Shown one piece after another: positions 2,491 to 20,272 of a stretch of 64,000 bases of DNA (position 1 is its first letter; every line of letters begins with the position of its first letter). The stretch is from the NCBI RefSeq assembly GCF_900188235.1, contig NZ_FZNT01000001.1:1-64000 (forward strand). The letters run 5' to 3'. Origin of the DNA: Lutibacter agarilyticus. GTDB taxonomy: Bacteria > Bacteroidota > Bacteroidia > Flavobacteriales > Flavobacteriaceae. Below the pieces are notes generated by a model. That model saw only the letters and a program-made list of their open reading frames with translations. It did not search any database and was not told the DNA's origin. Position numbers and translations under genes: made by a program.

Positions 2491-2499
2491 AACTACTTG

Positions 2500-2529
2500 T
2501 TTGTAAAAAAATAAAAAACAGTATATTCG
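2500..2529 (+). promoter_or_regulatory. Promoter for the wza-like gene
   Basis: TTTG at 2500-2503 and TATATTCG at 2522-2529 (one mismatch to TAnnTTTG) are separated by 18 bases, inside the usual Bacteroidota range. Transcription would start near 2535, between the stop of the dehydratase gene and the ATG at 2583. This makes the upstream TTG at 2544 an unlikely start. Confidence 0.55.
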
Positions 2530-2582
2530 CATCACTAAAAAAATTGAATAAAATAAAATTTCCCATCGGAAGAAATTTCAAT

Positions 2583-3344
2583 ATGAAAAATAAAATATAT
2601 GTAATTGGATTGCTAGTACTATTCTTGTTGACTAGTTGTGCTTCAAAAAAAGGGATTGTTTATTTCCAAGAAGTTGAAGGAGTTCAAGTGAATGATACCT
2701 TGATGAGTTTTGAACCTAGAATTCAGGCTGGAGACTTACTATTAATCAATGTTTCTGCCATAGATGGTGAAGCTGCCATGCCTTTTAATTTATACGAAAC
2801 GCCTATGATAGGAACTGCAGCTGCTAATGTAAAACCATTGACTTATTTGGTAGATGCTGGAGGTCATATTCAATTTCCTGTAATTGGACAATTAAAAGTA
2901 GCAGGAACTACTACTATGGAACTTACTGAAAAATTGAGAACGCTAATAGCGGCTTATATTAAAAATCCAATCATTAATATTAGAATGACCAACTTTAGAG
3001 TTACGGTTTTAGGTCAGGTAAAGGCTCCAGGTACTTATTCAGTACCTAATGAGCGTATTACAATTATAGAAGCGATAGGCTTGGCAGGAGATTTGGAAAT
3101 CCATGGAAAACGAAAAAACGTCATGCTTATTAGAGAACAAAATGGGCAACGTATGTTTGTGAATATTGATTTAACCAATAAAGAACTGTTTAGTTCACCC
3201 TATTTTTTCTTATCTCAAAATGATGTAATTTACGTAGAACCGAACAAAGTACAGGTAAATGCCTCTGCAGTTGGAGCTAATACTGGAGTTATAATTTCAG
3301 TAACCTCTATTTTACTATCACTAATTTCAATATTCTTGCTTTAA
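2583..3344 (+). CDS. Polysaccharide export outer-membrane lipoprotein (Wza family)
   Basis: Forms the outer-membrane export channel for the polysaccharide. The chosen ATG gives a clean lipoprotein signal peptide with lipobox LTSC and lipidated Cys19. A TTG 39 bases upstream would add 13 residues ahead of the signal and is less likely. The Poly_export domain covers roughly residues 50-120 (LTYLVDAGGHIQFPVIGQ). An SLBB domain follows (VTVLGQVKAPGTYSVP). A C-terminal hydrophobic helix spans the last 25 residues. The stop is 10 bases before the Wzc-like gene, so the two are co-transcribed and their products should form one envelope-spanning complex. Confidence 0.9.
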   Translation: MKNKIYVIGLLVLFLLTSCASKKGIVYFQEVEGVQVNDTLMSFEPRIQAGDLLLINVSAIDGEAAMPFNLYETPMIGTAAANVKPLTYLVDAGGHIQFPVIGQLKVAGTTTMELTEKLRTLIAAYIKNPIINIRMTNFRVTVLGQVKAPGTYSVPNERITIIEAIGLAGDLEIHGKRKNVMLIREQNGQRMFVNIDLTNKELFSSPYFFLSQNDVIYVEPNKVQVNASAVGANTGVIISVTSILLSLISIFLL

Positions 3345-3354
3345 TTTTTTTTAT

Positions 3355-5712: not shown

Positions 5713-5954
5713 TTTTTTGTGAGAAGTAAGGCGTAGCTTCGCTGGCTTAACAGTAAATACTGAATAGTGCTTGCAAACTGCCAAAAGCTAGCAAACCTTC
5801 ATTCTCACGAATGCGGGAATCTTTTACATTGAAATTGGGAACAATTATAATGAAATGTTAAACCAAGTTCAGCATGACGTTTGATTGCTAACAGAGTATT
5901 GCCTAGAGCAAAAAGCTAATAGCGAAAGACTAACGGCTAACTATTAACAAACAA
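5713..5954. repeat. Convergent intergenic spacer with dispersed repeat copies
   Basis: Between the Wzc-like gene and the convergent phosphatase gene. It holds a variant of the GTCATTC...GCGGGAATCT element (CATTCTCACGAATGCGGGAA near 5799) and a half-palindrome of the CTGAAACAAGTTCAGCATGACG family at 5851-5880. Related copies recur at about 8.7, 20.6, 23.3, 24.3, 34.1 and 59.2 kb. No gene is seen. Confidence 0.6.
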
Positions 5955-6698
5955 TTATCTAGAAAATAAGGTTACATTATTTTCTAACACAGGTTGTATA
6001 AGTCGAAGTATCTTTTTATCATTAATTTTTTCTAGATGATTCAAATGTCGGTGATGATGCGTATCAGTACCCGCTAAATCAATCATATTTTCTTTTAACA
6101 ATTTTAACGCGATGGTGTTTACATGCTTTCCGTAGTAATTTGAAAGAGATAATAAATTCACTTGAAATAAACAGCCAGCATCTTTTAGTTTCTGGTATTC
6201 ATTAAAATTTTGATGATAAAAATTATAACGTTCGGGATGTGCTAAAATAGGAGTGTACCCTGCAATTTGAATATTAAATAAGATTTCATACAAATTAACA
6301 GGTGCATTAAAATACGACATTTCAACAAGTATGTATGAATCTTTCAAGGGTAACAAATTTCCTTGGCTTAATAAGTTATTAAAATTGCCATCGAGCATAT
6401 ATTCAGCAGCTGTACTTAATTGAATATCCATTCCAAGAGAATTCAAATGAGCTCTTAAATCATTTAGTTTATCCATAATAATTTCTGGAGTATTTTCCCA
6501 AACACCTTCCATAATATGTGGTGTCGTAATAAAATTACGAATACCAAAATCATACATTCTTTTTATCAGTGCAACTGAGTCATCTAAATTTTTAGCCCCA
6601 TCATCAATTCCTGGTAATAAGTGAGAATGGATATCTACAAAATTTTCAGGAAGAATAGTTGTTATACTATTTTTTTGTTTCTTCAAAAATGATAACAT
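5955..6698 (-). CDS. CpsB/YwqE-type tyrosine-protein phosphatase (PHP family)
   Basis: A metal-dependent PHP-fold phosphatase expected to dephosphorylate the Wzc-like kinase. Metal ligands are visible in DIHSHLLPGIDDGA (His24, His26), TTPHIMEG, AHPERYNF and GTDTHHHR. The length of 247 aa fits the family. No signal peptide is present, which agrees with a cytoplasmic role. It is convergent with the kinase gene and lies 39 bases downstream of the Wzi-like gene, so it may be co-transcribed with it. Confidence 0.9.
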   Translation of the reverse strand: MLSFLKKQKNSITTILPENFVDIHSHLLPGIDDGAKNLDDSVALIKRMYDFGIRNFITTPHIMEGVWENTPEIIMDKLNDLRAHLNSLGMDIQLSTAAEYMLDGNFNNLLSQGNLLPLKDSYILVEMSYFNAPVNLYEILFNIQIAGYTPILAHPERYNFYHQNFNEYQKLKDAGCLFQVNLLSLSNYYGKHVNTIALKLLKENMIDLAGTDTHHHRHLNHLEKINDKKILRLIQPVLENNVTLFSR

Positions 6699-6737
6699 AT
6701 ATAGACAATTTTAAAATATAAAGTTAAGACTTAAAAA

Positions 6738-8201
6738 TTAAAAAAAACCGTTTTTTGAAAGTGTAATAAAACCTCCAAAATTTACGGGAGCATAGGTGCC
6801 AGTATCAAATGAAACCGAAGCTGAAATATTAAAAGGGACTCTATTGCTTTTTTCGGGAAGGTTTATTTCTAAAAGCCCAGAAAATTGTTTAGGTTTTGAA
6901 TCATACTCATTGTTAAACCAACCAAAATAAGTAACATGACTTAACATAGCTTTGTAAGTAATTGGTTTAAAAGTTCCTTTTATACCCACATTAAAAGCCA
7001 TAAACCGGTTGTCACCTATAATTACTCCCTGTGTAATGCCATTTTCATCAACAGGTTTTGTGGTAAAATATGGAGAGCCAATAGTGTGCCCAAAATAGGT
7101 CCAACCACTAGTATATACACCATTGTTAAAATAATTATCAAGTCCTCTTCCATGTATTTTATTACCATTTTCATCATAACCTTGATCTGGTGGGTTCGCA
7201 CCACTCATATTTTTGGTATAGGTAAATTCAGTTAATATATGACTTATAGGAGCTTCAGGTTGTTTTAAATCGATCATTAAGCCATATAAGCCATCCATCC
7301 AGTTTTGCAGTTCCATACCAGATCCATCTTCAAAAGGATGTGAATAATAAAAGTTGATATGGGTATGATCTCCAGAATAATTCATTTGAAAAAGATAGGC
7401 TCCTAAATGATTTCCTAATGCATTTAATTGGTCACTTTCAGAAGAATTTGAGCCACCTGATTTGCCTAAAACAATGCGGATAAAATCTTTAAAACTATCA
7501 GGTTGTTCTCCTGCGATATCAGATGTGCCTCCCCATTGAGCATAATGATCTATACCCGCTATTAATTCAAATTTAGGATTTAATTTAAACTTAAAAAACA
7601 GACTGGAATGGTGTAAGTTTGCCTTATCTACAGAGCGTTCGTCATTTAACCAATAATTGGCAAAATTTAATTGAAAGCTTAACCAGTTTTTTGCAAAGGG
7701 TAATTTTAGGTACTCTAAGGTTTTAATGTTAAAACCAGGATAGGCTCTAGCATTGATAGATTTTACAATATTTCCATTGGAAGATGATAAGCCCTCCCAT
7801 TTTATTTCACCATTTCTGTTTCCCAGATCTAAGGCCCAATTTTTATATTGAAGTCTAACATATAATTCATTAATGAAAACCGAATTTTTATCAGCAATAT
7901 ATCCAGTTGTTGTATTTTCATTTGCAATAAACCCAGTTGCACTTGCCTTATAAGCAATTCCAAAGTTTTTAGTCGGTTTTTTTAAGTTAGAGAAAATGGA
8001 GGCGTTTAAAGCACCAAAATTACTGTTTGGAACACTTCCGTACCTGTTTGAAACCAACCAAAAAGGCAAGGTTTCATAAGAAGAGATTCCGCTATTAAGT
8101 GAAATGTTATAATTAAAATGTTCTATTTCTTGCCCTTTAGAGTTGAAAGTGAAAAATAGAAGAAATAGTCCAAAAATAATTTTATTAAAAAAGGTCTTCA
8201 T
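6738..8201 (-). CDS. Capsule assembly Wzi-family outer-membrane protein
   Basis: A 487-residue protein with a signal peptide ending around FNSKGQ, then a beta-rich sequence with many aromatic residues, including SYETLPFWLVSNRYGSVPN near the N-terminus, characteristic of the capsule-assembly Wzi/porin-like family of Bacteroidota. It should be an 18-stranded-type beta barrel that helps attach or assemble exported polysaccharide at the surface. It precedes the CpsB-like phosphatase on the same strand. Family assignment is good; the exact role in attachment is inferred. Confidence 0.82.
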   Translation of the reverse strand: MKTFFNKIIFGLFLLFFTFNSKGQEIEHFNYNISLNSGISSYETLPFWLVSNRYGSVPNSNFGALNASIFSNLKKPTKNFGIAYKASATGFIANENTTTGYIADKNSVFINELYVRLQYKNWALDLGNRNGEIKWEGLSSSNGNIVKSINARAYPGFNIKTLEYLKLPFAKNWLSFQLNFANYWLNDERSVDKANLHHSSLFFKFKLNPKFELIAGIDHYAQWGGTSDIAGEQPDSFKDFIRIVLGKSGGSNSSESDQLNALGNHLGAYLFQMNYSGDHTHINFYYSHPFEDGSGMELQNWMDGLYGLMIDLKQPEAPISHILTEFTYTKNMSGANPPDQGYDENGNKIHGRGLDNYFNNGVYTSGWTYFGHTIGSPYFTTKPVDENGITQGVIIGDNRFMAFNVGIKGTFKPITYKAMLSHVTYFGWFNNEYDSKPKQFSGLLEINLPEKSNRVPFNISASVSFDTGTYAPVNFGGFITLSKNGFF

Positions 8202-8837: not shown

Positions 8838-9911
8838 CTAATTAAACAATTTCTTTTTATGCTCTCTATAAACTCTTTTTCTATCTGTAAGAATATCACT
8901 TCTATAGTCTTTATTAAGAATGAATAGCCTTGAACGGTTGAGTAAAAATTTTGTGTAATCTATGTAAAATAAGAATCCATGACACATATTAAAATACCAT
9001 AGGTGTTTTATTTTAAATTTAAACAATGCTAAGTATAGTTGAGTCTTTAAACTGGTTGGTTTGAAATTGATTTCTTTAAAAAAAAGGGAATGCCTCAAAA
9101 AATACTTGTCAAATATGGGTGTGGAATAATTGGATTGAATGTTTATTGTAGGGTGCTCTCTTAATATCAGACACGTATCATAGGCCATTCTGAAATTTAA
9201 GTAATTATAATAATTTCCTAGGTCATTTATTTGCAGGTTGAGTACATTGTGCTCTAATAAGTGTGTTGAAAGTGGAATAGAAATACCTTGAACAACTCTT
9301 TTGTTTTTTAATATTTCAGAAGGGATTAAATAATTAAAATAAGGTTTTTTTAAAACTTCCTTATGAATTTCAATTGCTGCTAAGGCTGTTTTTTTTACCA
9401 ACCTAGGAAGATGTCTGGACTCAAAAAGAGTTGCTCTAAGACGAATGTCTTCAAGGTTGCCATAATTGATGGTTTTAATTAATTCATAGGCTTCTTGTAC
9501 CTGATTTGAAGCTACTAATACATCTATATCACCAACCATACGTTCTCCAAGATCTTTGTAATAGTTGCCTGCCAATAAAGCCGTTCCTTTTAAAAATACA
9601 TGGTCTATATGATGATTGTTAAATAATTGGCTAATTTCGTTGACTTCGTTTAAAATTTCGAGGTTTCTATTGCGATTGATGGTTGTAATTTCTTCCAAAT
9701 ACTCAAGCAGATCTTCAGGTAAACAATTCAATAATTGTTTTTCTTTAAGCCTGCAGTAAATGGCAGGTAGCACCAAGTGACGACTCCCAATTTTTACAAT
9801 AGCATCCCAATTAAAGTTTTCTTCTTGTAATGTGAATTTTAATAATTGCGTAGCACTTTTAAAACTTAAAATAGCTCCAATAATTTCTAAGGTATTTTGT
9901 TGTGTACTCAT
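8838..9911 (-). CDS. NTP_transf_5-type nucleotidyltransferase family protein
   Basis: 357 aa matching the uncharacterised nucleotidyltransferase family often called NTP_transf_5. The fold signature is LKGTALLAGNYY (Lys108-Gly109) followed by GERMVGDIDVLV, where Asp128 and Asp130 are the likely metal-binding pair. No signal peptide or TM segment is seen. Members of this family recur beside HPr-kinase-like and PqqD-like genes in peptide-modification and exosortase-type loci. Here it is the last gene of a minus-strand island with three leader-type mini-proteins and an HPrK-like kinase, so a role in modifying those peptides is a reasonable inference. Substrate is unknown. Confidence 0.8.
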   Translation of the reverse strand: MSTQQNTLEIIGAILSFKSATQLLKFTLQEENFNWDAIVKIGSRHLVLPAIYCRLKEKQLLNCLPEDLLEYLEEITTINRNRNLEILNEVNEISQLFNNHHIDHVFLKGTALLAGNYYKDLGERMVGDIDVLVASNQVQEAYELIKTINYGNLEDIRLRATLFESRHLPRLVKKTALAAIEIHKEVLKKPYFNYLIPSEILKNKRVVQGISIPLSTHLLEHNVLNLQINDLGNYYNYLNFRMAYDTCLILREHPTINIQSNYSTPIFDKYFLRHSLFFKEINFKPTSLKTQLYLALFKFKIKHLWYFNMCHGFLFYIDYTKFLLNRSRLFILNKDYRSDILTDRKRVYREHKKKLFN

Positions 9912-10012
9912 TACATTTGTTCAAATAGTGAATTTTATTGTTATGAAGGCTAAAATACTTTATCAAAAAAATCAATAAAGTTTACATAAGAAACTTGTAT
10001 TTTTAACTAAAT

Positions 10013-10177
10013 TTAATGTCCGTCTGGATCGTTTCCTGGACCACTAAGAGGAGAATTTGCGTGTGCTTTTTTAGGGTTTAATATTAAAAAAGTTCCTGCA
10101 GCAGTTAATGCTGCATATTTACCCATTTTTTGAAGGGCTTCTTTACGTGTAATTTTGTTGCTATTGGAGTTCTTCAT
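10013..10177 (-). CDS. Leader-type mini-protein, copy 1 (54 aa; variable tail NSPLSGPGNDPDGH)
   Basis: The gene is 54 codons. The N-terminus holds a Tat-like or RiPP-leader-like segment: ITRKEALQKMG, a hydrophobic stretch AALTAAGTFLIL, then NPKKAHA. A 14-residue Asp/Pro/Gly-rich tail follows. Over 32 residues the leader is identical to copy 3 although 13 codons differ, all synonymously, so it is a real protein under selection. AHA before Asn/Gln fits a signal-peptidase AxA site, which would release just the tail. An upstream in-frame extension exists, but the Met used here matches the starts of the other copies. It lies between the kinase remnant and the nucleotidyltransferase gene. No named family is recognised with certainty. 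Confidence 0.8.
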   Translation of the reverse strand: MKNSNSNKITRKEALQKMGKYAALTAAGTFLILNPKKAHANSPLSGPGNDPDGH

Positions 10178-10241
10178 TTCGTGACAAATATAAAAAAATA
10201 GTTGATATTTCATTAAATTGAAACAGTTACTTTTTAAATAA

Positions 10242-10614
10242 CTTAATTACTAAATAATTTGTTAAAAATTTCTACAGCTTTATTATTATCGCTATAGTTT
10301 AATTCATAATACGATAGATTTTCTAGCCAATTTAAAACTGTTTGGCATTTTTGTGCTGAGGAGAAACCCAAGAATCTGGAATTAATGTTTGCAACACTTT
10401 ATCGACACCTGTTTTAATTAAAGTTGTAGGCGTAAGATAGTTATATTTTATAGATACAATTTTTGTGCAGGGTAGGTGTTGGATGGTATTTTCAACATGT
10501 TGCTGTGGAGGAATGTATTTAAGCAGTCCTTTTTTTGTACCACTATCAAAGCTATCAAGTTTATTAAAATGGGGAATATAATTTGTTAGCATTTCAAAAG
10601 CACCTTGTTTTATT
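10242..10614 (-). pseudogene. Truncated, frameshifted HPrK-like kinase remnant
   Basis: Near-identical to the 3' third of the intact kinase gene at 13202-14344, covering its residues from about 258 to the end. The Walker A loop and everything upstream are missing. A single A is lost from an A-run near 10333 (AAAA against AAAAA in the intact copy), shifting the last 30 codons out of frame. Homology stops abruptly at 10614, exactly where a 22-bp perfect inverted repeat begins. An 86-codon open frame from an internal Met remains but lacks all nucleotide-binding residues. It is a recent duplicate that has decayed. Confidence 0.88.
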
Positions 10615-10663
10615 ATAAATCCTACATTGATTATTCGCTTAGAATAATCAATGTAGGATTTAT
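10615..10663. repeat. Perfect 22-bp inverted repeat (hairpin) at the kinase-remnant breakpoint
   Basis: Arms 10615-10636 and 10642-10663 are exact reverse complements with a 5-base GCTTA loop. No T-run follows on either strand, so it is not a canonical terminator. It abuts the truncation point of the kinase remnant, at the place where copy 3's cassette instead has an ordinary terminator and the kinase start. It may mark the deletion junction or a vanished mobile element. Confidence 0.85.
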
Positions 10664-10750
10664 GTAATTGTTGTTGTTTGCCTATCCAATAGGTAATTTT
10701 TTAGCATCTATTGAATCGAGGTTATATACTTTATAATACCAGAAGGTTTA

Positions 10751-10909
10751 CTAGCGAACAGGATCTCCACCTGGATCATTAGGGTTTGATTGCGCGTGGG
10801 CTTTTTTAGGATTTAATATTAAAAAAGTTCCAGCAGCAGTTAAAGCTGCATATTTCCCCATTTTTTTGATGGCTTCTTTACGAGTTATTTGGTCATTGTT
10901 TTTTTTCAT
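10751..10909 (-). CDS. Leader-type mini-protein, copy 2 (52 aa; variable tail QSNPNDPGGDPVR)
   Basis: Begins MKKNNDQITRKEAIKKMG and shares the hydrophobic AALTAAGTFLIL and NPKKAHA leader with copies 1 and 3; only two leader residues differ in the common region (Ile for Leu, Lys for Gln). The 13-residue tail after AHA is unrelated in order but again rich in Asp, Pro and Gly, and keeps Ser at the second position. It starts 43 bases after the stop of the 657-aa T9SS protein and is probably co-transcribed with it. The perfect hairpin and the kinase remnant follow. Confidence 0.8.
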   Translation of the reverse strand: MKKNNDQITRKEAIKKMGKYAALTAAGTFLILNPKKAHAQSNPNDPGGDPVR

Positions 10910-10952
10910 TGCTATAAATTTCAAAAATGAATAGTTAGTTTGTTTTTAATAA

Positions 10953-12926
10953 TTATTGAATAATTACTTTTTTGGTTCTAAAAATACTGTTGCTCTTAAT
11001 TTGCACAATGTAAATACCAGTATTAAAACCAGTAACATCAATTTGTGTATTGTTACTGTTTTGCTCTAATGTTTGTGAATACACCTTTCTACCTTGTATA
11101 TCAAATAAATTAACTGTAGCAATATCAGTTATTTGTCCTTTTACAAAAAGAGCTTTTTCCATAGATGAAGTATAAATTTCTAAACTGTTTAATTTTTCTA
11201 ATTCTTCTTCTACACCTAATACTTTTGAAGATTTAAAACTTACAAAAAAACGACCTGTATCGGTTAAATTTTCGGTTGCAGTAAATTTATAATCAACTTC
11301 ATTCAGTAAAGTTAAATCGCCAGTTACATTGTCTTCTAAATAAACAAAGATCCCGCTTGGTAAAGTCGAAGAAGCAATACTTACGGTAACTTCTTTACCT
11401 GCAGTTGTATTGATGCCCAAAGGCACATTGATATTGTCAACATCAGTTGGATTTAAAGATTGAATTGCGATTGCTTTTCCTGTATTGTCTTCAACCAAAT
11501 GTGAGTACACTGAAAATTCAGGTGTGATAGTTTCATACAAAGCGGCATCATAACCAGAGTCTAAGCCTAAAGTGGCATTATCATTAAAATAGAAAGCTGT
11601 TTTAAAAGTAGTTGAAGCATCACTTATTTGAATTTTAGCATTGGTATTGCTTAACGTACTAGAAGCTTTTACAGCTTTACCAGCAATAAAATCATCAGAA
11701 GAACCCGTTTTTCTCATAGCAGGTGTAAATTGAACTGCACCACCAGCGGAAGCAGATCTTACATAAAACCCCTGTCCTGGAGCAAAAAGTTCAGTTATTG
11801 AAGTGTCATCAATAGTAGCTTGATTCCAAATAGTCCAGCCGCTTCCATTGTATCCATAAATGGCTTGATAAGCACCTGTTTCAAATAAGGTTTTGTTTGT
11901 TGAAAAGAAAGTTGCAAAATCTAAATATGAAGGATATGGATTTCCAATTAAATTCCAAGGGCTTCCAGCTCCTACATTAATAGGAGCAGGTACTGTACCA
12001 GAGTTAACAGTTCCGCTAAAAGTTAATGTACCACCTGTTTCGGTAGCTGACCTAAACCCTTTACCACTCTCAATTATTGTTGTTGCATTTGTGGTAGTTA
12101 GGTAATTTTCATAGGCGTCTGTAGCATTATTAAAAGGAGCAAACGCTCTAATATCTCCAGAAGCTGTTAAATTACTATTAGCCGTTGCAAAATCTCCAAA
12201 ATTTTGTCCTGAAACTGGTGGAGAAACTAAATCGTTTCCACCAGTGGTTCCTGAACCTTTAACATTTGTATAACGTTTGTAATCTACATTACCCGTACAG
12301 GTTCCTTCAACAATTAGACTTGAGTAGCTTGCAGCTGTTGATTCTAAAGTTAATAATCCATCTTGCGTTAAGTTACCTGTTATTGTTAAACTTTGTCCTG
12401 TATTAACAGTTAGGTTACCGGCTGCTGTTACGGTAAGAGTTTTAATTGTTGGATTTGTGTTTACAGTAACATTATTTGCTATCGATACAGCATAATCGCC
12501 AGATGAAGGCAAAACCCCTCTTAACCATATGCTTGTATCTTCCCAGTTTCCATCTGCTTTAGTTGAAGGTACAATAGGAATTTGTGCAGTAATACTACTA
12601 ACTCCCTCATATTGAGAATTAATACTTGCATTGGTGCCGGGCACTAAAACACCAACAAGCGCAGGCCAACTTCCCAAATTAATAGTTTGAGAACCACTGG
12701 CGGTAGTAACACCATTAAAGGTATATCCTGCAACTTGAACTCCATTGGCATCTTTTAATTGGTTAAAAATTTTTTTCCCTGGGATTACATTAGACCAAGT
12801 AACTTCATAAGATAAAAGACCTTTTCCACTAGGGTCAATCTCAACAGGAAGAGAAGTATAAGATATGGTTTGTGAGAATAATATTGATGTTGTGAACATC
12901 AATGCTAAGAGTAGTAATTTTTTCAT
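10953..12926 (-). CDS. T9SS-sorted surface protein (657 aa)
   Basis: Secreted protein with a signal peptide (MKKLLLLALMFTTSILFSQ) and a C-terminal type A sorting domain ending GIYIVQIKSNSIFRTKKVII, which directs export by the type IX system. The middle contains Gly/Thr/Ser-rich beta segments (LTVNTGQSLTITGNL), a WNLIGNPYPSYLDF motif and LFAPGQGFYV. These are shared with the 970-aa paralogue at 14651-17563. The N-terminal 130 residues differ between the two. It is followed directly by leader-peptide copy 2. No catalytic motif is recognised; an adhesin or structural role is likely but unproven. Confidence 0.85.
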   Translation of the reverse strand: MKKLLLLALMFTTSILFSQTISYTSLPVEIDPSGKGLLSYEVTWSNVIPGKKIFNQLKDANGVQVAGYTFNGVTTASGSQTINLGSWPALVGVLVPGTNASINSQYEGVSSITAQIPIVPSTKADGNWEDTSIWLRGVLPSSGDYAVSIANNVTVNTNPTIKTLTVTAAGNLTVNTGQSLTITGNLTQDGLLTLESTAASYSSLIVEGTCTGNVDYKRYTNVKGSGTTGGNDLVSPPVSGQNFGDFATANSNLTASGDIRAFAPFNNATDAYENYLTTTNATTIIESGKGFRSATETGGTLTFSGTVNSGTVPAPINVGAGSPWNLIGNPYPSYLDFATFFSTNKTLFETGAYQAIYGYNGSGWTIWNQATIDDTSITELFAPGQGFYVRSASAGGAVQFTPAMRKTGSSDDFIAGKAVKASSTLSNTNAKIQISDASTTFKTAFYFNDNATLGLDSGYDAALYETITPEFSVYSHLVEDNTGKAIAIQSLNPTDVDNINVPLGINTTAGKEVTVSIASSTLPSGIFVYLEDNVTGDLTLLNEVDYKFTATENLTDTGRFFVSFKSSKVLGVEEELEKLNSLEIYTSSMEKALFVKGQITDIATVNLFDIQGRKVYSQTLEQNSNNTQIDVTGFNTGIYIVQIKSNSIFRTKKVIIQ

Positions 12927-12958
12927 TTCGATAATTTTAGTTTTAAGTTGATAGACGT

Positions 12959-12966
12959 CAAATATA
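12959..12966 (-). promoter_or_regulatory. Candidate -7 promoter element for the 657-aa T9SS protein
   Basis: The minus strand reads TATATTTG, a perfect TAnnTTTG, 32 bases upstream of the ATG. No clear TTTG is found at the -33 position. It would give a short 5' leader and an independent transcript after the kinase terminator. Confidence 0.45.
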
Positions 12967-13141
12967 TAATTTTGAATGATTTAATCGTTAATTGATTGAT
13001 TTTAAATGTGTAACGTATAGTTTAATTAGTAGAACAAATGGTTTTTATTGAGACGATTCAATTATATACAATAGAAAATCACACAAAAGTTTAGCAGCTT
13101 ATTTATGTGTAAACCAACTCAAATTTTTTTTTTATATAAAT

Positions 13142-13173
13142 AAAAAAATCTCACTAAAATTTTTAGTGAGATC
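13142..13173 (-). terminator. Intrinsic terminator after the HPrK-like kinase
   Basis: On the minus strand the sequence ATCTCACTAAAA pairs with TTTTAGTGAGAT and is followed by a T-run (AAAAAAA on the plus strand). It lies 28 bases beyond the kinase stop and separates the two cassettes. Confidence 0.8.
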
Positions 13174-13201
13174 TAACTAGGGTGGCTTCATTTAATGAGT
13201 G

Positions 13202-14344
13202 TTAATTACTGAATAGCTGTTTAAAAAATTCTATAGCTTTATTATTATCGCTATAGTTTAATTCATAATACGATAGATTTTCTAGCCAATTTAAAAACTG
13301 TTTGGCATTTTTGTGCTGAGGAGAAACCCAAGAATCTGGGATTAAAGTTTGTAATACTTTATCGGCACCTGTTTTAATTAAGCTTGTTGATGCAAGGCTA
13401 TCATATTTTACATAAACAATTTTTGTGCAGGGTAGGTGTTGGATGGTATTTTCAAAATGTTGTTGTGGAGGAATGTATTTAAGCAGTCCTTTTTTTGTAC
13501 CACTATCAAAGCTATCAAATTTATTAAAATGGGGAATATAATTTGTTAGCATTTCAAAAGCACCTTGTTTTATTGAAATTGCAGCAGGATAATGATAAAC
13601 TTCTTTATTTTTAGAAAGTATAGGTGTAATATCATCGGCCATTAAATCCAGTCCACTAGCCATTAATAATGAACAAAATGTACTTTTACCATTGCCACTA
13701 TCACCAACCAACATAATGGCTTCTTTACCGTTTGAAACTGTTGAAGCATGGAAAGTTCCCAACCAATCGTGTTCTTTTGTATTATGGAGCACACATAATA
13801 GCTCCATAACAAAACGTCCTTGTAATAAATGGTAATTTGTTGGTTCGTATGAACCTATAAATTTTTCGTTTTTAAAAAGGTGTAAGTTATTATGTTGTTC
13901 ATAAATATCAAAAATGGTGGTTTTCTTATTTTTTGAAATTCCACATAAATGCATTAATTGTGGATGAATGTATTGCTTTATTTTTTCAGAAGAAAAATAG
14001 ATTTCAACTGTGTGCTTATTTATTTGATAACTTTCTTTATAGTTTCTATAGCTGTTATCAAATTCATTTTCTTTAGCCTCATTTAAAGAAAGCGGCTTGT
14101 TTTGTTCTTCTAAAAACAATGAAATGTCGTTATAAATAGCTTCAGCCTCTAAATTTTCATTTTTAAGTTTCTCTGTACTAGCAACTTTAAATATAAAATC
14201 GGATTTATTTTTAGCTGTAAAATAATTTGTTAAATAGTTATTTAATACTTCGTTAATAATGATGTAGCTATTCGATTTTTGAAACCAATGTATAAAGTGT
14301 TGATCTATAATTTGAGAATATGTTGGTGCTAAATTATTTTTCAT
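13202..14344 (-). CDS. HPr-kinase-like (HprK-related) P-loop kinase
   Basis: 380 aa. The C-terminal half resembles HPr serine kinase: FHAS (His199), Walker A GDSGNGKST at 214-222, and LMADDITPI with Asp237-238. The N-terminal half is not recognised. Canonical HprK phosphorylates HPr, but standalone relatives of this type accompany PqqD-like or nucleotidyltransferase proteins, and in some lasso-peptide clusters phosphorylate the precursor peptide. Here it lies 114 bases downstream of leader-peptide copy 3, behind a terminator that should limit read-through. A candidate function is phosphorylation of the peptides, which all have Ser just after AHA[QN]. That is inference. Confidence 0.78.
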   Translation of the reverse strand: MKNNLAPTYSQIIDQHFIHWFQKSNSYIIINEVLNNYLTNYFTAKNKSDFIFKVASTEKLKNENLEAEAIYNDISLFLEEQNKPLSLNEAKENEFDNSYRNYKESYQINKHTVEIYFSSEKIKQYIHPQLMHLCGISKNKKTTIFDIYEQHNNLHLFKNEKFIGSYEPTNYHLLQGRFVMELLCVLHNTKEHDWLGTFHASTVSNGKEAIMLVGDSGNGKSTFCSLLMASGLDLMADDITPILSKNKEVYHYPAAISIKQGAFEMLTNYIPHFNKFDSFDSGTKKGLLKYIPPQQHFENTIQHLPCTKIVYVKYDSLASTSLIKTGADKVLQTLIPDSWVSPQHKNAKQFLNWLENLSYYELNYSDNNKAIEFFKQLFSN

Positions 14345-14400
14345 ATAAGTAAGTGAAATCTATGTAAACTAGTATTGAATTTTAATTATTGGTGTAAAAG

Positions 14401-14436
14401 TACAAAAAAACCTTACTGATACATTCAATAAGGTTT
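14401..14436 (-). terminator. Intrinsic terminator between leader-peptide copy 3 and the kinase
   Basis: On the minus strand AAACCTTA (14436-14429) pairs with TAAGGTTT (14415-14408) across a 13-base loop, followed by T7. It sits 22 bases after the peptide stop and 57 before the kinase start, so it could set a high peptide-to-kinase ratio. Confidence 0.75.
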
Positions 14437-14458
14437 AAGTTGGTTTTGTTTTATAATT

Positions 14459-14623
14459 TTAGAATCCACCACGTGGATCTTCAGGATCATCAGTAGATTG
14501 CGCATGTGCTTTTTTGGGATTTAAAATAAGAAAAGTACCTGCAGCTGTTAAAGCAGCATATTTCCCCATTTTTTGTAATGCTTCTTTACGTGTAATTTTA
14601 TTGTTATTTGTTTGCTTCTTCAT
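14459..14623 (-). CDS. Leader-type mini-protein, copy 3 (54 aa; variable tail QSTDDPEDPRGGF)
   Basis: Starts MKKQTNNNKITRKEALQKMG and continues with the same hydrophobic segment and NPKKAHA as copies 1 and 2. The tail after AHA is 13 residues, acidic, with Pro and Gly. It starts 27 bases after the T9SS 970-aa gene stop, the same order as in the copy-2 cassette. The TRKEALQK basic/hydrophobic arrangement resembles a relaxed (Arg-Lys) Tat signal or a RiPP leader. Neither reading can be settled by sequence alone. Confidence 0.82.
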   Translation of the reverse strand: MKKQTNNNKITRKEALQKMGKYAALTAAGTFLILNPKKAHAQSTDDPEDPRGGF

Positions 14624-14650
14624 TGGTCGCTATATTTCAGAAAGTAAAAA

Positions 14651-17563
14651 TTATCTAATAATTACTTTTTTTGTTTTGTTAACTAAATTGTTTATCACCT
14701 GTATTATATAAATTCCGCTGTTAAATTGAGAAAGGTCAATTTGGGTTGAAATGTTATTTGCTTGAATTTGGCGTGTCGTAACCTTTCTACCTTGCATGTC
14801 AAAAAGATAGATTGAGGTAGTTTCATTTAATTTTCCGTTAACAAACAGTATATTGTTAGGTGTTGTGTATAACTGTAAACCGGTTTCTGTTTGTAATTCA
14901 TCTTCAACAGTAAGTACTTTAGACGTTTTAAAACTTAGGTGAAAACGCCCAGTGCTAGTTAAATTTTCATTAGCTATAAATGTATAATCATCTTCATTTA
15001 ATAAAGTCATTTTATTGGTTACATTGTCTTCTAAGTAAATAAAGATATTTTCAGGTAAGTTTGAGTTTGTAATACGTACCGTAAGTTCTTCCCCGGCTTT
15101 GGTATTTATACCAAGAGGAACAACAGCGTTTGTACTACTTTTAGTGCTTAAAGATTGAATGGCCATATCTCTACCTGTATTTTCCTCGATTAAATGTGAA
15201 TAAATAGAGAACTCAGGGGCTGAACTTCCAAAAACAGCAGCATCATAACCAGGATCTAAACCTACCGAAGAATTGTTGTTAAAATAGAAATCGGTACTAA
15301 AACTTTTTGTGCTGTTGGTAATTTGAAGTTTTAAATTTAAGTTTTCACTGGCGCTTTTCCCTTGAATAAAATCATCAGAACTACCAATACTTCTCATTGA
15401 AGGTGAAAATGTGATATCAGCAGGTGTGGTACTTGTAGCAGCAACATAAAACCCTTGACCAGGAGTAATTAATGGATTGGTACCTATAGTATTTAAATTA
15501 TAAATGGTCCAAATTCCTGAAGCGCCTGAATCTGTTTCATTGTTAAACCCGTAAAGCGCTACTGTAGTAGGATCCATTACAGCTGTGTTGGTGTTTATAA
15601 AATCTTCGACTTTTAGATAAGAAGGATATGGGTTTCCAATTAAATTCCATCGACTAGGAAATGCTCCAATTTTTATAGGAGTCGTTACAGTTTCATTGTT
15701 TACAGTACCTGTAAATGTGAAAGTGCCATTATCTGTAGAACCTGCTCTGTAACCAATACCAGGAGTTAATATAATTGCTGCTTCCGCAGGAATAGCAGTA
15801 TCGTACGTAAAATATAAATTCGTATCGTTATCAAAAGCACCAAAAAGTTTTTCAGTGTTATTTGCTGGGTTTGGAAAAAGAGTAGGATTGTCTGTAGAAA
15901 AATCACCAAAAGTTTGTCCTGTTACTGGTGCAGAAATTAAGTCGTTAGCTGTAGCTATATTTACATGACGCTTGTAATTTACAGCGCCCGTAGCTGTTCC
16001 ATTTGCAATTAAACTAGCATAGGTTGTACTTGTTGATTCTAAAGTTAATAACCCAACTTGATTTAAGTTACCAGTTATTGTTAAATCTTGACCAGCATTT
16101 ACGGTTAAGGAAGCACCACTTTCAACAGTAAGGTTGTAACAACGATTGCCAGAAGTACTTATAATAGGATTGTTTGACATTCCAGAGGGAATGGTTATAA
16201 TATCAGAAGCTCCCGGAACAACATTTAAGTCCCAATTGCTAGCAGTATTCCAGTTACTATCTGTATTACCCTCCCAAGTAAACTTAGGAGAACTAGTTAA
16301 ATAAAACCCAATAGCATTTACATTAAAAGTAGTGAGTGTGTTTCCTGGATTTGGTGAGATTTTATGTTCAAAAGAAATATCGTAAGAACTACCAGTATTT
16401 AAACCACTTACAATACCAATTAAACCACCACTTCCTATTTTTCCATCAGGTACATAGCGTTGTATTTCAAAATTAGTAAAGCTTGCATTGCTATCAAATT
16501 GATAGGTAGCATATGCGATATCTCCTCCTGTAGCAGTCATATTAAACGAAGTACGCAAAAATAATTGATTGCTAGCATTTGAAGGAGGTGTAATAGTTTC
16601 AGCGAATATTGGTTTATAAGTACTTGTAGAATTATCATCTGAATTGAACAAAGCGGCAACAGATGCAAAAACATCACCTCCTGTAGCCTCAGTTCCTTTT
16701 AATGCAATAGCAGATATTGTAGCTCCTGAGGTAATTATATTACTACCCGAATTTACTTTATAAGCTAACTCAAAATTATAAGTACCTGCAGGTCTATTAA
16801 TCAAGGTAACAATAGTAGCCGCCCCTATTGAAGTAGCATCTAAAATTGTCCTAGTAATTTGTGTATCATCAATAGTAGTATAAGTAGTCCCTCCGTTTGT
16901 AGATTCTCTTAAAACCCATTCTCCAGTTGCTTCAGCATTAGAGGATGTACTTGTTGAAAATGTTGAAACAATATAAATAGTTGCTTGTTTTTCCAAAACA
17001 ATAGCGTTTGTTGCAGTAACTTGGGAAAAAGTGATATCACTAGCTGAAAGTGATGTTAAAGACCCTTGCCCGTTTGGTAATGCGACAGCAGTGCTTTCTA
17101 TCTCAATAGCAGTAATAATAGCTTTAGATGAAAATGCATCCTTTTGATTACCCGTTTGGTTTTTTGATTGCTGCAAAGTAAAAGTTTTAGAACCTGTAGT
17201 ACTTGCATAATTAAAAATAAATGAAATAGCGACTAGCCCTTTATCATTGTAAGATTTTTGTTCAACCAATCGTGAAATAATTTCACTTTCACTTGTACCA
17301 TCAGTCAATCTAAATTGAGCTTCTATGTCTTTTTTATCTCCAGCAACATCAACTTCAATTGTAGCCTCTACCAACACTTTTGTGCCAGCTGTTAAAGTTA
17401 GAAGTGTTGAAGTAACATCAGTCCAAATATTATTATTTATTCCAGAACTAACAGCTGTAGTAGTTTGATTTGTAGAGGAAACCAGTGTTTTTGTTTGGGC
17501 ATTTATAAAAGATGTATTTAATATCAAAAATAACAACGATGTGATGAGAGTAAATTTTTTCAT
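14651..17563 (-). CDS. T9SS-sorted surface protein (970 aa)
   Basis: Has a signal peptide (cleavage likely after INAQ) and a type A T9SS sorting domain ending GIYIIQVINNLVNKTKKVII. The N-terminal half is Ser/Thr-rich beta sequence unlike the 657-aa paralogue. From about residue 430, beginning KFTWEGNTDSNWNTASNWDL, the two align through shared LTVNAGQDLTITGNL, GNPYPSYL, TPGQGFYV and SSDDFI motifs. It is the first gene of the copy-3 cassette and is divergent from the histidine kinase gene. No enzyme motif is visible; a cell-surface structural or adhesive protein is the best description. Confidence 0.85.
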   Translation of the reverse strand: MKKFTLITSLLFLILNTSFINAQTKTLVSSTNQTTTAVSSGINNNIWTDVTSTLLTLTAGTKVLVEATIEVDVAGDKKDIEAQFRLTDGTSESEIISRLVEQKSYNDKGLVAISFIFNYASTTGSKTFTLQQSKNQTGNQKDAFSSKAIITAIEIESTAVALPNGQGSLTSLSASDITFSQVTATNAIVLEKQATIYIVSTFSTSTSSNAEATGEWVLRESTNGGTTYTTIDDTQITRTILDATSIGAATIVTLINRPAGTYNFELAYKVNSGSNIITSGATISAIALKGTEATGGDVFASVAALFNSDDNSTSTYKPIFAETITPPSNASNQLFLRTSFNMTATGGDIAYATYQFDSNASFTNFEIQRYVPDGKIGSGGLIGIVSGLNTGSSYDISFEHKISPNPGNTLTTFNVNAIGFYLTSSPKFTWEGNTDSNWNTASNWDLNVVPGASDIITIPSGMSNNPIISTSGNRCYNLTVESGASLTVNAGQDLTITGNLNQVGLLTLESTSTTYASLIANGTATGAVNYKRHVNIATANDLISAPVTGQTFGDFSTDNPTLFPNPANNTEKLFGAFDNDTNLYFTYDTAIPAEAAIILTPGIGYRAGSTDNGTFTFTGTVNNETVTTPIKIGAFPSRWNLIGNPYPSYLKVEDFINTNTAVMDPTTVALYGFNNETDSGASGIWTIYNLNTIGTNPLITPGQGFYVAATSTTPADITFSPSMRSIGSSDDFIQGKSASENLNLKLQITNSTKSFSTDFYFNNNSSVGLDPGYDAAVFGSSAPEFSIYSHLIEENTGRDMAIQSLSTKSSTNAVVPLGINTKAGEELTVRITNSNLPENIFIYLEDNVTNKMTLLNEDDYTFIANENLTSTGRFHLSFKTSKVLTVEDELQTETGLQLYTTPNNILFVNGKLNETTSIYLFDMQGRKVTTRQIQANNISTQIDLSQFNSGIYIIQVINNLVNKTKKVIIR

Positions 17564-17905: not shown

Positions 17906-19597
17906 ATGAAAAAAATGAACATATCACTCCTCTATATTCTTTTTTGTAGTTTCATTTCAACAACTATTTTTTCCAAAGAAATAGTTGTTTCTGATACGCT
18001 TAAAGTTAAACAAGCCGGAGAAGCTTTTTTGAAAGGATATTATTTAGATGTAGCTCATAAAAAGGATAGTGCATATTTTTATTATAAAACCGCAAATGAA
18101 ATTTATAGAAGTTTGAATGATAGTTTGATGATTGGGCAAACGTTGACTTATTTAGCCATTTTAGAGTCGGATTTAGGAGATTATACCAGTAGTGATATTA
18201 CGGCAATTGAAGCGTTGAAATTTCTGCCTAAAGATAAAACAGAATACTTAACTTCAGTTTACAATTGTTTAGCTATTTCATCTAGAAAACAAGAAGATTT
18301 TAAAGAAGCCTTGTATTGGTATGATAAGGCGATTGCTATTTCAACAAACAAGAGTAACACCATTAAATACCTACAGAATAAGGCAAATGCATACAGAGAT
18401 TTAAATGCGTATGAAAATGCTATTAATTTACTTGATAGCTTAAACACTCTTGAAATTAAAAGTAGAAAAACAAAAGCCAGAATACTTGATAACTTGGCTT
18501 ATACAAAATGGCTAAATGGTGAAGCATCAATTATTAACGATTTAGAGGCTGCTTTAAAAATGAGGCAAACTGAGCAAGATACTTGGGGGTTAATTGCTAG
18601 TTACGCGCATCTTTCAGAAGTGTATAAAAAGGAAAATCCAACAAAGGCACTTGGTTATGCAAAGCAAATGTATGGTTTGGCTATCAAATCTAACAGTCCG
18701 CAAGACCAGTTGGAGGCATTAAATAAAATTATTGCACTTGATAATTCAAAAAAACTAAAAGATTTTTATGCGCGTTATTTAAGAATTAATGATAGTTTGA
18801 ATAAAGCTGAAAATAAAGCTAAAAATAAATATGCCAAGCTAAAATTTGATTCGGAAAAAAACCGTGAAGATAATTTACAGTTAAAAATTACCAATGCAAA
18901 AAAAGAACTGGCATTGCAAAAAGAAAAAACAATCAATATTGCTGGGTCAGTTGCTAGTGGTTTTACCTTGCTATTATTTTTAGGCTTTATGTACTACAGA
19001 AAACAGCAGTACAAGCAAGAGAAAAGGGCAGAAGTGTATCAAACAGAAACCAGCATTGCAAAGAAAATACATGATGAAGTTGCAAATAATGTGGTGAATA
19101 TTATGAACAGAGTACAATATATTGAAGAGCCTAAAGAAAACCTGTTAGATGATCTTGAAAAAGTGTACTTGTTGACTAGGAATATTTCTCACCAAAACAA
19201 AGCCATTGAAACGGGTGAAAATTATACAATAGCCTTAAAAAGCCTACTAAATAATTTTAATTCAAGCACAACAACTATTATTTTAAAAAACATAAGTAAT
19301 GTTGGTTTAGAAAATTTATCGGAGACCAAACAAATTGAAATTTATAGAGTTTTGCAGGAATTACTAGTAAATATGCAAAAGCACAGTAAAGCTAAATTAG
19401 TTGCTTTATCTTTTGAAAAAGAGAAAGGAAATATAAGTATTATGTACTCTGATAATGGAGTAGGAGTAGCTTTAAATAGTCTAGAATTAAAAAATGGTTT
19501 GGTAAATATGGAAACCCGTATAAAATCCATAAATGGTATTATTACTTTTACATCAACCTTAAATAAAGGGTTTAAAGCAATCATTAGTTTTAAATAA
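17906..19597 (+). CDS. TPR-containing sensor histidine kinase
   Basis: A signal-peptide-like N-terminus is followed by TPR-like helical repeats (about residues 40-280), a coiled coil (300-340), one TM segment (344-363), a HisKA_3-like dimerisation helix with AKKIHDEVANNVVN (His389), and a HATPase domain with QELLVNMQKHSKA and SDNGVGV. This is the usual Bacteroidota NarL/DesK-type sensor that reads a periplasmic signal through TPRs. Its stop is 6 bases before the response-regulator gene. It is divergent from the T9SS/leader-peptide island, whose regulation it might govern. Confidence 0.88.
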   Translation: MKKMNISLLYILFCSFISTTIFSKEIVVSDTLKVKQAGEAFLKGYYLDVAHKKDSAYFYYKTANEIYRSLNDSLMIGQTLTYLAILESDLGDYTSSDITAIEALKFLPKDKTEYLTSVYNCLAISSRKQEDFKEALYWYDKAIAISTNKSNTIKYLQNKANAYRDLNAYENAINLLDSLNTLEIKSRKTKARILDNLAYTKWLNGEASIINDLEAALKMRQTEQDTWGLIASYAHLSEVYKKENPTKALGYAKQMYGLAIKSNSPQDQLEALNKIIALDNSKKLKDFYARYLRINDSLNKAENKAKNKYAKLKFDSEKNREDNLQLKITNAKKELALQKEKTINIAGSVASGFTLLLFLGFMYYRKQQYKQEKRAEVYQTETSIAKKIHDEVANNVVNIMNRVQYIEEPKENLLDDLEKVYLLTRNISHQNKAIETGENYTIALKSLLNNFNSSTTTIILKNISNVGLENLSETKQIEIYRVLQELLVNMQKHSKAKLVALSFEKEKGNISIMYSDNGVGVALNSLELKNGLVNMETRIKSINGIITFTSTLNKGFKAIISFK

Positions 19598-19603
19598 CAA
19601 ATT

Positions 19604-20272
19604 ATGTTCAAGAAAGTATTAATAGCCGAAGATATGGACTTTATTAATTTTGGAGTTCGGTCTGAGTTGGAAAAGTTAGGAGTGAAAGAAATTGATTATG
19701 TTCAGTATTGTGATGAAGCACTATTGAAATTAAAAAGCGCTCATTTAAATAATGCACCTTTTGATTTGTTAATTAGCGACCTATCATTTGAGCAAGATCA
19801 CAATAATCAAAAAATTACCTCAGGAGAACAACTTATAAAAAATGTAAGAAACGATTTTCCTAAACTAAAAATAGCGGTTTTTTCTGTAGAAGACAAAGCG
19901 TATACCATTCAAACCCTTTTTAAAGAACATCATATCAATGCCTATGTTTGGAAAAGCAGGGATGGTTTAAGGGAGCTAAATAGGGCTTTAAATATGATAG
20001 AAACTTCTGAAAGTATTTACATATCTCCAGAATTAGCAAGTGTATTAGCTTGCAATAATTCGGTTGAAATTACAGAATACGATATTTTTTTAATTGATTG
20101 TTTGTCTCAAGGCTTACTTCAAGGACAAATAAGTGAAAAGCTGAAAGAGTTAAATTTAAACCCTTCTAGTGTAAGTGCGGTTGAAAAAAGGTTGAAATTT
20201 TTGAAAGAACATTTTAACGCAAACAATCCAGCTCACTTGGTTGCTATGTCAAAAGACTTAGGACTTATTTAG
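19604..20272 (+). CDS. Response regulator with receiver and C-terminal HTH domain
   Basis: Receiver domain with acidic pocket EDMD (residues 9-12) and phosphoacceptor Asp59 in LLISDLSF. A C-terminal region (about 145-220) has a helix-turn-helix-like pattern, ITEYDIFLIDCLSQGLLQGQ, resembling the LuxR/NarL class but divergent. It forms a two-gene operon with the sensor kinase. Targets are unknown; the adjacent divergent island is the obvious candidate. Confidence 0.86.
   Translation: MFKKVLIAEDMDFINFGVRSELEKLGVKEIDYVQYCDEALLKLKSAHLNNAPFDLLISDLSFEQDHNNQKITSGEQLIKNVRNDFPKLKIAVFSVEDKAYTIQTLFKEHHINAYVWKSRDGLRELNRALNMIETSESIYISPELASVLACNNSVEITEYDIFLIDCLSQGLLQGQISEKLKELNLNPSSVSAVEKRLKFLKEHFNANNPAHLVAMSKDLGLI

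Follow-up and report, generated by a model that had tools for sequence, protein, structure and literature searches.

A gene cassette for a probable LPP-like modified peptide, co-inherited with type IX secretion surface proteins, in Lutibacter agarilyticus and other Flavobacteriaceae

The window analysed here, the first 64,000 nucleotides of contig NZ_FZNT01000001.1 of Lutibacter agarilyticus, contains an island of genes between positions 8838 and 17563. Inspection of its open reading frames placed all of the parts on the minus strand (Table 1). The island holds three short peptides (minis), a kinase related to HPr kinase (HprK), a nucleotidyltransferase of the NTP_transf_5 family and two surface proteins of the type IX secretion system (T9SS). 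The computational analysis indicates that this cassette probably makes a ribosomally synthesized and post-translationally modified peptide (RiPP) of the kind called linear polyphosphorylated peptides (LPPs), coupled to T9SS surface proteins. An original prediction, made from the letters of the window, had described three 52-54 aa minis with tails of 13-14 aa after AHA, and these were found on the minus strand with ends at 14459, 10751 and 10013. Each mini start is a chosen ATG, and longer frames are also possible for minis B and C. The predicted HprK-like kinase with GDSGNGKST, the NTP_transf_5 protein and the two T9SS proteins on one strand were confirmed. Both T9SS proteins carried the type A sorting domain TIGR04183, with 41.6 bits for T9SS-A and 38.5 bits for T9SS-B (cut-off 23). 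The kinase has a predicted N-terminal domain resembling a RiPP recognition element (RRE).

Table 1. Parts of the island, with positions in the window
Feature	Position	Strand	Remarks
T9SS-A surface protein, 970 aa	14651..17563	-	C-terminal module and type A sorting domain
Mini A, putative precursor peptide, 54 aa, tail QSTDDPEDPRGGF (13 aa after AHA)	14459..14623	-	
Terminator-like hairpin in the gap between mini A and kinase, 12 pairs and T tail	14408..14436	-	Consensus match only
RRE-HprK fusion kinase, 380 aa	13202..14344	-	Walker A GDSGNGKST; RRE-like 1-82, then HprK/PEPCK-fold domain; H199, K220, D237, D238
RRE-like (PqqD-like) part of the kinase, residues about 1-88	14081..14344	-	Predicted fold
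Terminator-like hairpin 3' of the kinase, 13 pairs and T tail	13146..13174	-	Consensus match only
T9SS-B, paralogue of T9SS-A, 657 aa, 51% identity over 535 aa	10953..12926	-	
Mini B, putative precursor peptide, 52 aa, tail QSNPNDPGGDPVR (13 aa after AHA)	10751..10909	-	
Second kinase copy, a remnant without N-terminal part, frameshifted	10243..10614	-	
Mini C, putative precursor peptide, 54 aa, tail NSPLSGPGNDPDGH (14 aa after AHA)	10013..10177	-	
NTP_transf_5 nucleotidyltransferase, 357 aa	8838..9911	-	PF14907; G127-D128-x-D130, E181, H183, D245

The mini leader was nearly fixed across the family (consensus ITRKEAIKKMGKYAALTAxGTFxILNPxKAQA), and the tails varied. Distinct tails were counted instead of loci because several species occur twice (L032/L071, L033/L069, L036/L066), and two truncated minis (L048, L057) were left out of the 95 distinct tails. 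The seventh place after the leader Asn-Pro was occupied by Ser in 93/93 tails, the codon being TCN in 98 and AGY in 9 of 107 minis. The commonest tail was (A/S/T)S-PPDPGGNPFD, a consensus common to several genera. With this fixed Ser and common consensus, the tails are not unrelated, as they had been taken to be. In 56 of the 93 tails no other Ser, Thr or Tyr was present within the 13 residues beyond the invariant Ser, while 37 contained one. A fixed Ser after a conserved leader is the pattern expected of a modification site beyond a recognition leader, and the conserved N-terminal part, variable C-terminal part and fixed Ser of the minis are those of an LPP-type precursor. The leader also looks like an export signal. 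A site of the signal-peptidase-like AxA type (Ala or Ser at both places) was observed in 74/93 distinct tails, so that cleavage after AHA did not hold up as a family-wide trait. The Arg-Arg of a twin-arginine (Tat) signal is not the family pattern: among 51 leaders one Arg was invariant and the next place was Lys in at least 90%. A TatC gene was present in 23 of the 24 genomes checked, so that Tat export of the mini is possible.

Four residues of the kinase, His199, the P-loop Lys220, Asp237 and Asp238, were kept in 85/85 aligned rows (the window protein plus 84 of 88 frames, those >330 aa; frames of 330 aa or less were dropped). A structure model built from 63 sequences reached a mean predicted local distance difference test score (pLDDT) of 95. 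Residues 87-380 matched phosphoenolpyruvate (PEP) carboxykinases with Z 13.4 and a root-mean-square deviation (rmsd) of 5.2 over 282 residues, and the HPr kinases 3tqf and 1ko7 with Z 11.8 and rmsd 3.0 and 2.8 over 127-128 residues. Alignment and model thus agree on an HprK-like kinase with catalytic-type residues and an HprK fold, as in LPP clusters. The closest NCBIfam family was TIGR04352 (HprK-related kinase A), matched by 63/63 kinases; the window kinase scored 61.7 bits, below the curated cut-off of 200, and its alignment was confined to the last two thirds of the model. The usual companions of TIGR04352 kinases are PqqD and NTP_transf_5 proteins. In 20 kinase frames (L032-L130) no early ATG was present and a TTG immediately preceded the conserved start of the protein, which makes it likely that translation begins at this TTG, directly past the mini stop codon.

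The PqqD that had been deemed missing is, according to the predicted fold, the kinase's own fused N-terminal domain. When residues 1-88 were modelled alone, a pLDDT of 91.5 was obtained and the model displayed the β3-α3 winged helix of RREs. The best structural match was a lasso B1 protein with its leader (6jx3, Z 8.9, rmsd 2.3 over 78), and the TbiB1-leader complexes 5v1u and 5v1v gave Z 8.2 and 8.1, respectively. The next RRE matches were a sactipeptide enzyme, TigE, TbtB and MccB, with the whole domain covered. Nine of the ten best entries were RiPP enzymes, the tenth being a phage lysin at Z 5.3. Across 106 loci, 212 small frames of 40-199 aa lay within 3 kb, and no discrete, LppB-like RRE was seen among them, a genome-wide search for remote RREs not being part of this count; the only small frames recurring in more than 12 of these loci were a 149-aa gene and a beta-barrel gene of 190 aa. 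The cyclase and protease that had likewise been reported missing were indeed not seen, and a lasso peptide was discarded since neither a macrolactam synthetase nor a B2 protease was found among the island proteins or the recurring neighbours.

The nucleotidyltransferase was assigned to PF14907 (E 9e-33, Pfam scan), a family found in 43/43 cassette nucleotidyltransferases scanned. Asp128, Asp130, Glu181, His183 and Asp245 were present in 82/82 rows and Gly127 in 81. By this family assignment, the cluster contains an NTP transferase gene, as LPP clusters do. A second member of the same subfamily is encoded elsewhere in the genome of the window (L258, 5915-6991, G000:C16). Its neighbours resemble, by eye, a sugar transferase, an aminotransferase and a glycosyltransferase, and no mini or kinase lies within the 16 kb fetched. 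Two lineages (L106, L043) showed the gene order mini - nucleotidyltransferase - kinase.

In order to evaluate how the genes are inherited, 249 Flavobacteriaceae genomes were searched by profile. The mini profile, built from the three window minis only, matched 24 genomes in 22 of 235 genera. The kinase was also present in 24 genomes, 23 of which had a mini, and the nucleotidyltransferase subfamily in 22, every one a kinase genome. Homologues of the mini were therefore not scattered without the kinase (both in 23 genomes), and the hypergeometric P of the overlap was 3e-30, shared ancestry being ignored. The genome with a kinase and no mini (G048) is 82% complete and its kinase lies at a contig end. 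The thresholds for kinase and nucleotidyltransferase were 1e-15; the weakest matches covering most of the model had E 5e-62 and 5e-79, respectively, with a wide gap below. The seed alignments of kinase, nucleotidyltransferase and T9SS protein came from mini loci, which biases them toward mini-linked members. Among 395 genomes of the phylum, clear minis were found in Flavobacteriaceae only (5 of 8 matched genomes); the other three matches were long frames with E 0.003-0.009. Among 316 genomes, with no more than 6 candidates scored in each, 20 gave a kinase match; the full-length matches came from Flavobacteriaceae only (5 genomes), and the remaining 15 covered the HprK domain alone.

Named genomes were scanned as well, the best 80 of 151 stretches giving 80 loci, and named loci were obtained from Winogradskyella, Psychroserpens, Hanstruepera, Bizionia, Mangrovimonas, Lutibacter, Tenacibaculum, Polaribacter and others. 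Both sources combined gave 106 loci around minis, with some species present twice and some loci cut by contig ends. All four families were found in 81 loci, five lacked the nucleotidyltransferase only, 15 had mini and T9SS protein, and five a mini alone. The order T9SS - mini - kinase - nucleotidyltransferase on one strand was conserved. A same-strand T9SS gene stood upstream of 100/105 minis (within 700 nt in 96), a count that omits 4 of the 109 minis whose leader missed the pattern, and two to four T9SS genes often lay in a row 5' of the mini. Downstream of 84/109 minis, the nearest family gene within 800 nt was the kinase. The gap between mini and kinase was at most 77 nt in 83 cases, and that between kinase and nucleotidyltransferase at most 223 nt in 79. 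Co-inheritance and locus order together bear out the original prediction of a single set of mini, kinase and nucleotidyltransferase genes, and the T9SS proteins are part of it.

The set was also maintained where its genes are apart. In G123, G149, G055 and G067 the minis lie away from the kinase, which is still in the genome. Two genomes (G333, G547) have six minis each, all beside T9SS genes and none beside the kinase within the 13-19 kb fetched; one T9SS gene of G547 is followed by two minis, and each genome has a single kinase next to a single nucleotidyltransferase elsewhere. The kinase was present in 8/8 further genomes whose mini locus shows none. Three of these (with loci L110, L124 and L135) already had a known kinase (L114, L130 and L106), which leaves five fresh tests, two of them with loci that begin at a contig end (L108, L127). 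That the set is kept together even when unlinked is a stronger argument than the hypergeometric P.

What the T9SS proteins next to minis had in common was limited to a C-terminal module about 470 residues long. This was evidenced by 27 of them, hand-picked, nearly all from 48 representatives and all from named loci: the modules were alike in 351/351 pairs, the N-terminal parts in 19/325 pairs (26 parts >100 aa). Within G333 and G547 the modules were alike in 55/55 pairs, as compared with 4/45 for the N-terminal parts. Very unlike passengers are thus joined to one module, and it is the module that goes along with the peptide genes. A profile built from the last 480 residues of mini-adjacent T9SS proteins exceeded 200 bits in 26 of the 249 genomes, including 24/24 kinase genomes; this line is a chosen cut-off on T9SS scores that form a gradient. 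Few residues separated the module from its generic relatives when 8 outgroup stretches were compared. In contrast to ordinary T9SS cargo, a sub-branch of the C-terminal module tracks here with a peptide pathway, and we know of no ordinary type A cargo with a dedicated modified-peptide pathway. Three tandem generic module proteins without a mini were observed elsewhere in the genome of the window (L201, G000:C11).

For comparison, the closest published system was considered, as described in excerpts of the sources cited here and below. The lpp cluster of Paenibacillus alginolyticus (Popov et al. 2026, PMC13381572) contains a precursor, an HprK-like kinase, a discrete RRE, an NTP transferase, a SipW-like peptidase and an MsbA-like exporter. 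LppK phosphorylates S3 of the linear core AQSNWK, and the exchange S3A abolishes phosphorylation. No effect of LppN was observed by the authors in the host that they used. LPPs, described in May 2026, are called Bacillota-restricted and their roles are stated to be unknown; capsule loci were remarked near the clusters (PMC13381572). The present cassette is similar in that its putative precursor is linear, a conserved leader being followed by a variable core, and in its HprK-like kinase, RRE-like domain and NTP transferase, with no need for a lasso cyclase. The acceptor Ser, a putative one here, is third from a conserved position in both (AQS in LPP, often AQS or ASS in the window family). The cassette differs in belonging to Bacteroidota and not Bacillota, in an RRE-like domain fused to the kinase instead of a separate protein, and in its export-signal-like leader and T9SS partner. 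Since several LPP-defining genes and the leader motif were not encountered, the cassette is not classed as LPP.

A second comparison concerns the lasso clusters of paeninodin and pseudomycoidin, reviewed in PMC9266682, with the kinases PadeK/ThcoK and PsmK and the nucleotidyltransferase PsmN. A His-Lys-Asp-Asp set is reported to be essential in lasso kinases, and the attachment of one or two hexoses to the phospho-Ser of pseudomycoidin depends on PsmN (PMC9266682). H199, K220, D237 and D238 would correspond to this set, as judged from their place around the P-loop. The likeness extends to an HprK-like kinase for a precursor Ser together with a nucleotidyltransferase gene; the Ser is near the start of the core here and C-terminal there. 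No published HprK-RRE fusion, T9SS-RiPP link or mini family in Bacteroidota was found among the matches listed in searches of the open-licence PMC literature. The prediction of a new peptide system is therefore sustained as regards an LPP-like gene set with a T9SS partner, and weakened as regards novelty, given that the Bacillota LPP kinase already acts on a linear peptide (PMC13381572).

The best reading of these results is that a phospho-(glyco)-peptide serves the T9SS module family. The mini would be the precursor, with a leader followed by a short Ser/Pro/Asp/Gly core, and its leader would be gripped by the N-terminal RRE of the kinase. The HprK-fold domain would then place phosphate, perhaps more than once, on the invariant Ser that lies three residues beyond a conserved Gln or His. 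The NTP_transf_5 protein may add a further group to the phosphate, a sugar or a nucleotide, probably a hexose as with PsmN. Leader capture and Ser phosphorylation are likely on the basis of the folds, the residues and a close published analogue. By way of the general export machinery the leader, cleaved or not, would take the modified peptide to the periplasm, and the peptide would work there with the shared T9SS C-terminal module, most likely in anchoring or assembly at the outer membrane. Export and outer-membrane action are proposed from the genetics of the gene set, the action on the T9SS module being the weakest step of the mechanism. More specifically, the modified mini may be joined to or docked with the 470-residue module and so fix diverse passengers to the outer surface, a version that we put forward tentatively and hold to be less probable than its opposite.

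Several observations weigh against this reading, beginning with the peptide itself. The leader lacks the [YW]xxP motif of LPP and lasso precursors, and the LPP motif YxxPxVLxHQxIxFETxxS, as given in the excerpts, was not encountered. Arg-Lys stands in place of a twin Arg, and the AxA-type site is missing in 19/93 tails. No peptidase or exporter of the SipW-like LppS or MsbA-like LppD type was seen among recurring neighbours (31 of 106 loci, frames of at least 150 aa, inspected by eye and not by profile search). As for the RRE-like domain, Z values of 8-9 are near the 7-8 often reached by models without a clear match, the Foldseek E values were weak (0.03-0.4), the PqqD Pfam family (PF05402) matched only 1/63 kinases (E 0.041), and a sequence search of the PDB with this part returned no RRE. 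Regarding the gene set, one genome (G136, 84% complete) has a mini without kinase, nucleotidyltransferase or module match, and since module and mini adjoin in most loci, their co-occurrence is partly linkage. Neither mini nor kinase was found in two genomes whose module exceeded 200 bits, G066 (80% complete, short contig) and the weaker G121 (217 bits). A module match of E 1e-30 or lower, in most cases to a generic relative, was obtained in 128/249 genomes, and the hosts own other T9SS proteins, weaker relatives of the module, without a peptide system. G157 has at least six modules and one mini, and some modules are without a mini of their own. The pathway is a prediction from genes and modelled folds.

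Alternatively, the mini could stay whole in the inner membrane as a phosphoprotein, with Ser phosphorylation as a switch that governs whether the adjacent T9SS proteins are expressed or secreted, and a nucleotide from the nucleotidyltransferase as a second switch. Judged by eye, the leader contains a hydrophobic segment some 12 residues long. This segment, the tails devoid of an AxA-type site, a leader conserved far above the tail and the lack of a peptidase among the conserved neighbours seen would fit such a switch. It is nevertheless unlikely. A fixed leader with a variable core is the RiPP pattern, the RRE-like fold is typical of RiPP enzymes, and the mini is too small for a signalling domain. 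The six similar minis beside six T9SS genes in G333 also fit partners better than switches. The true substrate of kinase and nucleotidyltransferase might, on the other hand, be a sugar or the T9SS cargo, the mini being an allosteric adaptor that activates the enzymes through the RRE. T9SS cargo of Porphyromonas is joined to a special polysaccharide via a linking sugar, according to an excerpt of PMC13086638, and the sugar- and polysaccharide-like neighbourhood (by eye) of the second nucleotidyltransferase gene would agree with this. An adaptor does not need an invariant Ser in a variable tail, present here in 93/93, and the LPP and paeninodin kinases act on the precursor (excerpts of PMC13381572 and PMC9266682). 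This explanation is accordingly given slightly less credit than the membrane switch.

A secreted antagonistic or signalling RiPP, for which the T9SS protein would be a carrier or immunity factor, appears very improbable. Its patchy spread (24/249 genomes, 22/235 genera) and the several differing minis of some genomes would suit it. However, the short, acidic, Pro/Gly-rich core keeps a consensus from genus to genus, whereas bioactive cores usually diversify, and no exporter or immunity-type gene was seen among the conserved neighbours.

As to the layout of the island, the kinase remnant comprises about the last third of the gene, and its DNA is 92-93% identical to the intact copy. Direct repeats run in register across both T9SS-mini-kinase units, which indicates that T9SS protein, mini and kinase were duplicated together in tandem. 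The 5' border of the broken copy falls precisely on a perfect 22-bp inverted repeat (10615-10663). Nine terminator-like sites were detected in the region by consensus matching, as compared with 3.9 expected (sd 2.0), and the hairpins after mini A and after the kinase would yield peptide in excess of enzyme.

A tetratricopeptide-repeat (TPR) histidine-kinase-like gene and a response regulator (17906-20272) adjoin the island on the opposite strand; relatives of the response regulator also occur in loci L033, L059 and L069. On the other side the island adjoins a polysaccharide export set (589-8201) with Polysacc_synt_2, Poly_export, a Wzz/AAA_31 tyrosine-kinase-like protein, CpsB_CapC and Wzi. 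A capsule link as conserved trait was rejected, as relatives of Polysacc_synt_2, Poly_export, the Wzz-like protein and CpsB_CapC were found in 2/106 loci each, and no locus had a Wzi relative (phmmer, E 1e-10). Other nucleotide-sugar-enzyme-like genes, named by eye, recurred in 8 and in 5 of 31 loci. In 70/81 loci (L032-L137) the nucleotidyltransferase was followed on the same strand by a gene for a small outer-membrane beta-barrel of about 190 aa. OMP_b-brl was matched in 1 of 3 scanned, and the window has no such gene. Weaker relatives occurred in 132/249 genomes, and scores >180 bits in 8, all with the kinase. It was dropped as a fifth gene of the system because it is missing in the window and weaker relatives are common. 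A defence or phage origin was discarded too: the five island proteins scanned gave no PADLOC match and one weak PHROG match, to the kinase. The minis may bear some resemblance to PID-CTERM small proteins.

If the proposed pathway is true, LPP-like chemistry would be extended to another phylum and to Gram-negative cells, with RRE and kinase, by predicted fold, in a single chain. The T9SS partner makes the purpose of phosphorylated linear RiPPs directly testable by genetics in cultured Winogradskyella and Psychroserpens. The cassette is possibly a missing piece in how such marine Flavobacteriaceae keep T9SS proteins on their surface. Should the peptide act as an anchor, it would be, to our knowledge, the first LPP-like peptide with a biological role, and also the first RiPP to serve protein display.

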